The notes under the pieces are model-generated. The model was not told where the DNA came from, did no database searches, and was given only the letters and a program-made list of their open reading frames with translations. From Styela clava (Eukaryota > Chordata > Ascidiacea > Stolidobranchia > Styelidae): 64,000 bases of DNA. The translations under genes were made by a program, and so were the position numbers. How positions within the stretch are numbered: position 1 is the first letter of the stretch; the number at the start of each line of letters is the position of its first letter. Where the stretch lies: assembly GCF_964204865.1 (NCBI RefSeq), contig NC_135259.1, positions 16,254,974 through 16,318,973 of the forward strand. Reading direction: 5' to 3'. Shown piece by piece: positions 36,171 through 41,100 of this stretch.

Positions 36171-36739
36171 ATGGAACCATGCAGCAACTGTCAAAAGAAC
36201 TCTGCAATAGTAATGACTTGAACTATATGTGGTAATTTGTATTCCACATTTTGGTATTCTCAACTTACCGGTACCGGTATCTGTTTACTGGCAACTGTAC
36301 CGATACCGTAATTGATATGCTGAGTCATTCCGACTTGCTATTATTTGCGTAATGTTTTGTTGGTGCTTTATGATTTCATTGTGTAGGCCTACTGGTACCG
36401 GTACCTTACCTGAACAATCAGATACTGAGATATGAGGGTGTACTGAAACTGAGATACATATTGATTTAAAAAAAATATTTAACCAATTATTGTGTTTGCT
36501 ACTGATTTATTTAAAAAATAATTCACAAAAGATGAGATAAGGTTTGGCCTACATAAATTGAATTACAGTCTTATTTTTAACCAAGCTAGGATGCATGCAT
36601 TTTTATGCACTACAACTTTAATATATTTTTATCATGCTCAATTATCCACACTCTATTTTTTTAGTATCTCAATAAATAAGCTCACATAAATATAATTAGT
36701 CATTTTATAAGAGTGCGTCGTAGCATTCATACCTGCATA

Positions 36740-37402
36740 ATGACAGCTCCAAGTGTCGAAATAAGTGTTGTTTCGGACATTATGTGACCCTGGTGCTGGG
36801 TCGGTAAGAAGAAACTAGAACGTGCCATGGATATGACCAAAGATAATTACAACTTCAAGGTTACTTGGCAACCCTTTTTTCTTCGACCCAATATGCCCCT
36901 GGAGGGTGTTCCCAAGCCATCAGATTATGGCCCAAACACACCCGGATCCCAAAGGTTGATAAATATTGGAAGACAGGTTGGCATTGATTTCAGTTACAAA
37001 TCAGATCGGTTTCCCAACACTTTGCTGAGTCATTGTGCTTTAGAATATGCTCTCGAACAGGATCCTTCAGGAAAAATTCAAAATGAATTGCAAGAAAAGT
37101 TATTCAAGGCCTACTTTACCGATGGAAATTATCTCAATTCTGATCTGGTATCTTCACTTGCTGGGGAATGTGGATTGTCTGTGAGCGATGTTAAATCGTT
37201 TATTGCAGACACTAAAAACCAAGAAAAGACACGACAGAAGGCATTGAAAAACTCAGCAGAAGGTGTTACAGGAGTCCCATTCTTTGTTATAAATGGTCAA
37301 GGAATGATTTCTGGAGCACAAGAACCTGAAACACTTGCCAGAGCTTTTGAAATAGCGAATAACAAATTTCCTATTCAACGAACTTCAGCATCTTCTTCCT
37401 GA
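36740..37402 (+). CDS. DsbA/FrnE-like selenoprotein with UPWC active site
   Basis: Thioredoxin-fold oxidoreductase of the DsbA/FrnE (2-hydroxychromene-2-carboxylate isomerase-like) family, 220 residues in one exon if the in-frame TGA at 36785-36787 is read as selenocysteine 16. Upstream of it is MTAPSVEISVVSDIM. Downstream is PWCWVGKKKLERAM, which aligns with the family pattern SDxxCPWCYIGKRRLE. The redox pair becomes Sec16-Pro-Trp-Cys19. The cis-Pro loop GVPFFVING is near residues 178-186, and FLRPNMP and LLSHCALEYA are also family-like. Apart from this TGA the frame is open to the final TGA. A SECIS-like hairpin lies at 37869-37932. No targeting signal is evident, so it is probably cytosolic. 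Substrate unknown. If TGA were a stop, translation could only resume at Met 36827 and would lack the active site. Confidence 0.88.
36785..36787 (+). other. In-frame TGA, predicted selenocysteine codon
   Basis: The TGA falls exactly where family members have the first, nucleophilic Cys of CPWC. The frame is homologous on both sides and there is no other lesion. The following base is C. Confidence 0.87.
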
Positions 37403-38106
37403 AACCCAAACTCTGCTTGCTGCCAACTGCCAAAATGATAGTTTTATTCGAGTTATAGAAACTAGTTACATGTTAAAAGTAAAAAAATGGTATATTTTGT
37501 TCTCAGGAATTTGTATTTTACAGTAATACATTCAGTCAAATATTTGCTATGAATATAACCATTATAAATACATACAGTTTGTAACTATTACGGTAATTTC
37601 AGAAATATATTTTGCATCACACAACATTGTTTTTACACCGTGACTAGAGTTTCTGCATGTTTATATTTATCGTAGTTGTTTAAAGCCTTATGACATCTGA
37701 TGACGATTTTCTCTAAAGTCATCAAATTGACTACATTTGTTTTATATCAACAGTAAATGATACATGTAGGAAGATTTTTATAAATTTTTTTGGTTAGTTC
37801 ATTTATGCAAAGCAATAATTTTTTAAGATATCAAACAAATATCATTTGTATGTTTATGGAGGGTTGTTGAAAACTTTATGATGTTTTGATGAGAAAATTT
37901 TCAAACTCATCAAGATTGATTTAGCCGTTTTCTTACAATTCAAAATACTTCATGAAAATGATATTTGAAATCATATATATTCAAAAGTTGTTTCTAATTT
38001 AGATATTATAGTAATATGTAGTATGGCTTTACATATCGAGAACTTTTCTACAAATGGTGTAACATAGTCGATTGTATTGCGCAATCTTTTCCACAACTGT
38101 TTCACA
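37403..38106. other. 3' UTR of the selenoprotein gene and TBC1D20 5' flank
   Basis: About 700 bases. No AATAAA was seen between the stop at 37402 and the SECIS-like hairpin at 37869, so the hairpin can lie within the same transcript. The remaining part up to TBC1D20 is AT-rich. Confidence 0.5.
37869..37932 (+). promoter_or_regulatory. SECIS-like element in the 3' UTR
   Basis: Read as RNA. Lower helix: GAAAAC (37869-37874) pairs with GUUUUC (37927-37932). An internal loop follows. The core quartet is AUGA (37878-37881) opposite UGAU (37917-37920), giving tandem G-A pairs flanked by U-U. The upper helix of about 11 bp contains the perfect UUGAUGAG/CUCAUCAA pairing (37886-37893 with 37906-37913). 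The apical loop starts AAAA (37894-37897). This matches the eukaryotic SECIS consensus: AUGA core, GA opposite, AA at the start of the apical loop, and a core-to-loop spacing of 12 nt. SECIS elements recruit SBP2 and the selenocysteine elongation factor. The pairing was worked out by hand. Confidence 0.85.
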
Positions 38107-41100
38107 ATGTCTATGCAAAAATTGAGCGCAACTAAAAGAAAACAAAAACTTGCCGAAATATATCAAGCATTGAATAGTGATCCTGTTGACATACCAGCTC
38201 TCCGAAAACATGCTATTTCACCAGGTGGATTAATTCAAGATGAGGTAGGTATAAATAATTTTTTCAATTGTTTTATATGTTGTTGTTGCTCATTTCGAAC
38301 AGTTTTGATATTTTGAGGCTTTTAGGTATTTTTCAGTATTACTAATATTGAAGCAATATCTCTAGTCCTGAGTTTTTTACCTGTTTAGGAATGACACAAT
38401 TGAATTATATTCTGGAAAATATTTTGAATGCTATCTTCACATTTTAACGAGTCCATACTTATACTAACATCTTCAATAAGGCAAACAAAGAATATTAATT
38501 TCAAAATTTAATCTTATTAACATGCTTTCCCTACTAGGTTGATTTTAACATTTTCTATTCAAATGCTTCTCTAGGAGATGCTATTTGCAACATTGTATCT
38601 CTGTGTTTTTTTTTCATTAGGTTCGGAGAAAAGCTTGGCCTAAACTTCTGAATGTCAATGTATTTGATGCCGTTATAAAGCCAGGTACTTTATCTTGGGT
38701 CTCATGTAGTTTTGTACCTAACGTACTTCTAGTGGGCGTAGCCTAACAATTTTTTCATGTGTCAATCCTAACCCCCACCTGACTACGCTATCCAAAAATT
38801 GCGTCACCACGACGTCACAGTGACGTAATAGAGTCCTCCAAACTATACAAACTGTCATACAAAACGCGCAGACGAGAACCCTAAAACGAACAGCTATTTC
38901 TCTCGTTTTCTCGTCGCAACGATCCCGATAGGAGAAAGATCTCTGACGTTAGTCCGTTCTTTATCGTCGGCGCCAATGCCAGTTCAGGCAATCGTACATG
39001 TATTTGGCAAGCTCTATGACGTGATTGTGACATCGTATTGACATAATTTTTGGATGGCGTAGTCAGGTGGGGGTTAAGATTGACATGCCAAAAAATTGCT
39101 ATGCTACTCCCACTAGTACGTCAGGTACGAAACTCATAAGATCCCTTTATCTTATTTTTGTATTGTAATAATGTATGAGTTTATATACCAAAACAAGAAT
39201 GCCTTACACTGTACCAAAGTGGAGTTTCCAGATAATTATCGTAGATTATATAGTAATAAAACTGTGATGTCTATGCTAAAACTAACCAAGGTAGCTTTGA
39301 GATCATCTTCATAATTTTAGATTGTTCAACTCCCCATAGAGTATACCAGTGGTTCACAACCGTTCATAGTCCGTGGCGCCCTCCCGGGATCTTACAGATT
39401 AGATCAACATGCTACAACAATGTGAAAACAAAACACATCCTGTGAAATACCCTCATCGAGTAATGAAACTAGGAAAAACGTTGCTTTTTTGTAAAGGGAA
39501 AAGTAAAATCAGTTTTGCATCTAACGTGGTGACCCCCCTCCAACTGCTCTGTGGCACACTTGGTGGGCCACGGCCCCCGATTGGGAACCGCTGTAGTAGA
39601 CCCTAGTTAGTTCACTTGAATTCATTAGACTTTAGGCAAAGATATCTTTTATTGTGTAGAATCTTGGCACAGTTAGCAGATCAGTTTCAGAACTTTCAAC
39701 CTGATTTCTTTACTTTCATATGCCATTAATTTTCTTCTAATTTCAAAGGGGATCTACATTTGCATAAAGATTACCAGCAAGTTTTGTTGGATGTCAATCG
39801 GTCAGCTAGAAGATTTCCAAAATGTGAGTTTACCTCTTCAAACTTTAACCATGTTGCCATTACATGGAAAATTTTTCAGTGTCATTAATTTTAATCATTA
39901 CGTTGTTCATTGAGTATATTGTCTGCATAGATTGTTATGTTCAAGTGCCCTATTTCACAGCATTGAGCCAAAGAAAACAAATAAAATGCCTTGTACGCGC
40001 GACGCTAGTTTGTCCCATCGGGCTAAGCCTCGGGAACCTGCATGTCATCTCAATTCATAAGTTTGAATCCTGTGGGGAAACTGCTAGTTGGACGAGATGC
40101 GGCCTTTTGCCATATGATTTTTCACTTTGGAGATAAATATGAAAAGTTCAAATAATTCAGGGATGGCTAAAACTGAATAATTTAGTATTTTGAATACATT
40201 TTAAAATAAATATTTTGTATTTGAAATATCAAATGTGTTCTGAAATGCGTCTGTTCCACAAGATAATTCCTCAAGACAATTGTAAATTTGTAGAAATGAA
40301 ATTTGTTGAGGATAATTGAGATAAACATTGTTTTAATTAGTATACTCTTTTCATTTTTTCAGAAGTTACTAATTTTTTGTTTATCATAAGATGATGAATG
40401 CTTGAAAAGACATTTCTTGAGGTTTAGAGTTATGCTAATCTATGCCAGAATCAGAATGAGAGTTGAAATATTAATACTGTACGAACAAAATTTAGAATGC
40501 AATTCTTTTTCAGCAATGCCTGCCGATCAGAGAGAAATTTTACAAAACCAAATGTTGGATGTTATTGTGTGGGTTTTGACAGAACATTCTGAATTACATT
40601 ACTATCAGGTAAGTAATTGTATTTTATTTGCCACAAGAAAGTTGCAAGCCTCATTTTTTGGTCTGGTGTTAAATATAAGTTAGACAAGTTTTTCTACAAT
40701 TCTTTAAAAAACGACAGAATTTTTTTTATTTCCTAATGCAACAGGAAATTTGCGACACTTGCTGCTTGTGTTTATATGGAGCAAATGTGTACATCACATA
40801 AAAAATTGCTCTGATCGCCTTTTTACTGTGTAGTAGACCTTTGCTGAATATAATGTTATTGTACTTTGGGGACTCCCGAAGTATGCGAACCAAGATGGCG
40901 GACATCGGAATGTTATATGTGTACTAGGTTAGGGTTAGGCCATAATTTTAGGTATAAATACTACGGGAGGCTCTTGGCTAGTCTTCGAACTGATAATAGG
41001 ACTAAAATAAGGAAAATTGGAACAAAAATTATCGCCTAACCCTAACCTGTTACCCATGTTACGTTCCGATGTCCGCCATCTTGGTTCGCATACTTCGGGA

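Follow-up and report, generated by a model that had tools for sequence, protein, structure and literature searches.

DsbA-type proteins with selenocysteine (Sec) are already known from animals. They were reported in 2010 for Ciona intestinalis, C. savignyi, and Branchiostoma floridae, and the passages of that report on the family describe a SECIS element and state that annotation of these genes in Ciona and amphioxus had wrongly assigned the Sec-TGA part to the UTR (PMC2874816). A 2012 publication covering six marine invertebrates lists Sec-DsbA for four of them, which it abbreviates as Nv, Lg, Ct, and Bf (PMC3473315). FrnE (DsbA) is also listed as an animal selenoprotein family in the description of SelenoDB 2.0 (PMC3965025), and DsbA is counted among the selenoprotein families reported in animals where a further article enumerates them (PMC7539508). 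The initial annotation of the locus described here knew of no established animal member and suggested that the gene might encode a little-described or new metazoan selenoprotein; its novelty is not supported in view of what PMC2874816, PMC3473315, and PMC3965025 state on the family. The gene adds no new selenoprotein family. We take Nv, Lg, Ct, and Bf to stand for Nematostella, Lottia, Capitella, and Branchiostoma.

The window, i.e., the whole stretch of 64,000 nucleotides that was analyzed, contains the following features of the coding region:

36740..37402, plus strand: coding sequence of the proposed FrnE/DsbA-type selenoprotein, one uninterrupted frame of 220 residues plus a TGA stop codon (translation, Pfam, FrnE alignment)
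36785..36787, plus strand: in-frame TGA, proposed Sec16 of the U-P-W-C motif, Cys in aligned relatives
36794..36796, plus strand: TGC, proposed resolving Cys19 of UPWC (translation and FrnE alignment)
37277..37279, plus strand: CCA, Pro180 of TGVPFFV, putative cis-Pro by the active site (TGVPFFV aligned in 5cnw)

The cis-Pro role of Pro180 is our assumption from the thioredoxin fold. With TGA read as U, the frame translates into MTAPSVEISVVSDIMUPWCWVGKKK...RTSASSS, which amounts to 220 residues followed by the final TGA; the 221 codons given by the initial annotation are reached only when the stop codon is counted in the span, and codon 16 lies at 36785-36787, where that annotation had placed it. 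The only stops in frame within 36740-37402 are at 36785 and 37400, and the 204 codons between them would be stop-free by chance with a probability of ~1.5e-6, calculated for the given base composition and independent bases. Upstream of the ATG, TAG and TAA codons are present in frame.

The family-like sequence on both sides of a single TGA at the first Cys of a CPWC motif, which had been noted from the letters alone, was confirmed by homology searches. These were run with C substituted for U, which slightly favors a match, and gave PF01323 (Pfam DSBA) on residues 8-203 with an E-value of 9.1e-34 and 117.4 bits (cut-off 25.6; positions 2-190 of the 191 profile positions) and, as the nearest solved relative, FrnE (PDB 5cnw/5cp1 and others) with an E-value of 2.7e-26. 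As the latter homology spans residues 5-203, the TGA sits within the domain. In the alignment with 5cnw/5cp1, the TGA codon is opposite the first Cys of the FrnE CPWC motif, and a Cys occupies this position in three relatives, namely FrnE 5cnw, which we take to be the Deinococcus radiodurans protein, SCO1869 (3gl5), and a Micromonospora homologue with 31% identity, in which ADIMCPWCW is aligned. Alignment to 5cnw and 3gl5 showed both the CPWC-type redox motif, with C or U in first place, and TGVPFFV to be present. Among prokaryote contigs, a pattern search matched 46 stretches, one of which was a relative (in the Cys form), and none of the three stretches matched in viral contigs was a relative. 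Judged by its sequence, the window protein is thus very probably a FrnE/DsbA selenoprotein.

This assignment is strengthened by a form-I SECIS-like hairpin in the 3' flank, which the initial annotation had missed:

37861..37941, plus strand: SECIS-like element, form I, with a basal helix, AUGA at 37878-37881, helix II at 37883-37893/37906-37916, apical loop at 37894-37905, and UGA at 37917-37919
37403..38106, plus strand: stretch from the CDS stop to the next ATG, read as the 3' UTR holding the SECIS, its extent being putative

The hairpin is located 475 nt past the CDS stop, and the stretch 3' of the stop contains the sequence TTTATGATGTTTTGATGAGAAAATTTTCAAACTCATCAAGATTGATTT. The helix has 11 bp with two G-U pairs and no mismatches, and the apical loop of 12 nt starts with AAAA. 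The fold of 37855-37945 reached -22 kcal/mol, compared to -13.99 (sd 2.74) for shuffled sequences (z -2.92), and none of 200 shuffles was as stable. As Rfam SECIS_1 gave no match in 36400-39500 in a search with all families, we used a custom SECIS-core descriptor, which is not SECISearch, which follows rules that we presume to define the core, and which was composed after the element had been spotted by eye. Counting both strands, this descriptor had five matches in the window, with the element at 37861-37941 on top (score 10) and the others at 5 to 6.5. Among 60 simulated single strands of 64 kb, a score of at least 10 was seen one time, and a looser descriptor run on 2.4 Mb of simulated sequence reached a score of 10 nine times, corresponding to ~0.003 per 700 nt.

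Several results count against a functional SECIS-dependent gene, including the lack of an EEFSEC match above cut-off and the weak elements of two other genes described below. On the genome, Rfam SECIS_1 had no match among the 150 of 7261 candidates that were scored, and no control matched either; the model was silent although this genome contains SPS2 and GPX genes with TGA. In addition, neither AATAAA nor ATTAAA occurs from the CDS stop up to the start of the next gene (38107). This gene is encoded on the same strand, its first exon (38107-38244) matches TBC1D20 (4.4e-11), and it starts 187 nt past the UGA of the SECIS-like element. As no canonical poly(A) signal separates them, the FrnE and TBC1D20-like genes might share a transcript. 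The element is presumed to be part of the mRNA of the window gene. Elsewhere in the window, an SLX9-like frame (205-924) is followed on the same strand by an intronless Mn/Fe superoxide dismutase frame (1667-2359, with Sod_Fe_N and Sod_Fe_C), which starts 742 nt behind it.

As an ORF from the ATG at 36827 exists mechanically, it was in principle conceivable that the TGA is a true stop and that translation starts at this ATG, which would leave a protein of 191 residues that lacks the redox motif. Ciona and amphioxus genes were once annotated in this manner, with the Sec-TGA part as UTR, and it is this type of gene model that the text of the Ciona paper on these genes calls misannotation (PMC2874816). 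The shorter ORF is devoid of the domain start and the active-site motif, yet the preceding 29 codons match the family, and the SECIS-like element would be left unexplained. On account of the upstream family match and this element, we rejected the true stop as highly improbable.

The genome (376.6 Mb, 379 contigs) was searched for Sec machinery, a check that the initial annotation had proposed, and tRNA-Sec(UCA), SPS2, and SepSecS were recovered. One of 44 tRNA-Sec matches was above the Rfam cut-off (79.6 bits), and ARAGORN assigned it as tRNA-SeC with the anticodon tca (UCA). Two SPS2 genes carry TGA in TGLKG*GCKVPQ, each forming one frame up to the next stop, and all six SepSecS exon matches were above cut-off. 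Two PSTK-like matches lie within one 325-codon open frame, the best with 90.3 bits versus an NCBIfam cut-off of 382.35. EEFSEC was not recovered with the selB profile, as none of its 17 matches on the genome was above cut-off; we take the six that were read to resemble other translation GTPases. A large array of tRNA-like sequences at C3:23494748-23755434 matches tRNA-Sec weakly (38.8-44.4 bits, below cut-off), with all listed matches on the minus strand and three more on contig C9, and it may be a family of repeats of a different tRNA gene.

Six of ten GPX-family exon matches were read, and in two of them the catalytic position is taken by a TGA that is the only one in frame (NVASK*G and NVATY*G). 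Together with the two SPS2 genes, this permitted a look at SECIS-like hairpins of other TGA-bearing genes. For SPS2b, the predicted fold contained such a hairpin ~0.8 kb past the stop, and for the GPX on contig C8 it contained one 3' of the last GPX motif that was detected there. With SPS2a, the best score of the first descriptor was 3.5, and a looser fold search led to a weak hairpin ~2.2 kb past the stop. The descriptor match of the GPX on contig C14 (9.5) was unformed in the predicted fold at four of four segment lengths. Of the four other genes with TGA, two, SPS2a and the C14 GPX, therefore give little support through their candidate elements. As four SECIS-like elements aligned poorly in MAFFT, we do not claim covariation.

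The SPS genes also hint at the lineage. For Botryllus and Halocynthia (Styelidae, Pyuridae), an intronless SPS2-Sec and an intron-bearing SPS1-Gly are described in the text on ascidian SPS genes (PMC4561486). Both SPS2-Sec genes of the genome are intronless and located on one chromosome-sized contig (C5:23366600-23372000 and C5:17231000-17236000), the former with a Pro/His/Gln-rich C-terminal extension. SPS1-like matches were found on contig C10 as several exon pieces, and LHGGGCKVP, with Gly at the Sec position, is present in the genomic frame just upstream of these pieces, the exon borders being putative. The styelid/pyurid pattern of an intronless SPS2-Sec and a multi-piece SPS1-Gly is thus found here, though other taxa may share it, and the published description of the ascidian pattern mentions one SPS2, whereas there are two in this genome (PMC4561486). 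As the pattern is the published one, the window most likely comes from such a sea squirt and its gene is most likely the sea-squirt orthologue of Sec-DsbA, a placement that rests on the SPS genes, since a search of the assembly for COX1 found none.

PF01323 had 11 matches in the genome, all of which were read: the window gene, one on contig C6, and nine on contig C17. This search scores the best candidates only, and in this case 12 of 12 were scored. Three of the ten matches outside the window cover the active-site part and have LSPYS or LSPYA where FrnE has CXXC, while the remaining seven correspond to later parts and resemble fragments of the same sort of gene. As LSPYS or LSPYA is also seen in GST kappa, we refer to these genes on C6 and C17 as putatively GST kappa-like. 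They share the PF01323 domain with the window gene and differ from it by LSPYS/LSPYA in place of CXXC, and the C17 copies seem to be split into exons. The nine C17 matches are found on both strands within ~62 kb (C17:4423386-4485448) as a cluster of GST kappa-like gene pieces. From these sequences, the genome seems to have no FrnE other than the window gene.

The absence of introns from the CDS, as opposed to the first exon mentioned for Ciona and the first and last exons mentioned for amphioxus in the text of PMC2874816, could suggest a processed pseudogene whose active site was hit by a nonsense mutation. Such a pseudogene would need to have its lone disablement in the form of a TGA exactly at the published Sec position, with the SECIS-like fold kept; apart from this TGA, the final stop is the only stop in frame (~1.5e-6 for 204 open codons), and none of the ten other PF01323 matches read as a second FrnE. 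The open frame, the position of the TGA, the SECIS-like fold, and the lack of a second FrnE among these matches led us to reject the pseudogene, which is as poorly credible as the true stop. The least probable alternative is an assembly error that hides a Cys-FrnE with TGC or TGT as the true codon, for which one base change would suffice, but a Cys form needs no SECIS, and this was rejected in view of the SECIS-like element that is present.

Taken together, we are highly confident, as far as genomic evidence reaches, that the locus is a functional FrnE/DsbA-type selenoprotein gene whose UGA codon 16 is presumably read as Sec through the form-I SECIS. In the proposed mechanism, the SECIS in the 3' UTR would recruit the Sec machinery, and the ribosome would insert Sec at codon 16. 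The product is predicted to be a thiol/disulfide oxidoreductase or isomerase with a thioredoxin fold, in which Sec16 would be the nucleophile that attacks disulfides, Cys19 would resolve the mixed selenenylsulfide, and Pro180 (TGVPFFV) would shape the active site. The literature passages on animal FrnE mention no experiments on its function. As no obvious signal peptide was recognized by eye, the protein is probably cytosolic. It is possible, although we consider it rather unlikely, that the gene arose as a retrocopy and took the place of a parental FrnE with introns, the Sec mRNA including its SECIS having been re-inserted, as with SPS2 in this lineage. If so, the locus would be a functional selenoprotein gene that consists of one exon and carries a form-I SECIS.

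Compared with known systems, the window protein resembles FrnE of PDB 5cnw in the aligned CPWC and TGVPFFV motifs, whereas the latter is bacterial, has Cys in place of Sec, and has a longer chain of 260 residues. Periplasmic DsbA differs in location from the presumably cytosolic enzyme of the window. The Sec-DsbA proteins of Nv, Lg, Ct, and Bf (PMC3473315) and FrnE of SelenoDB 2.0 (PMC3965025) belong to the same family by the descriptions given there, with Nv, Lg, and Ct representing other phyla and Branchiostoma being a chordate. The closest parallel is Sec-DsbA of Ciona and Branchiostoma, which, according to the passages on these genes, likewise has Sec instead of the upstream Cys of CXXC and a SECIS downstream, in chordates (PMC2874816). 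As far as the descriptions can be compared, the Ciona SECIS is form II with a minihelix and that of the window is form I, and the text refers to a first exon in Ciona and to first and last exons in amphioxus, whereas the window gene has one uninterrupted coding exon (PMC2874816). As in Ciona, FrnE-type genes can be cut at the TGA by annotation (PMC2874816), and the window gene is a further example of Sec-FrnE, well supported at the genomic level and apparently from another ascidian lineage.
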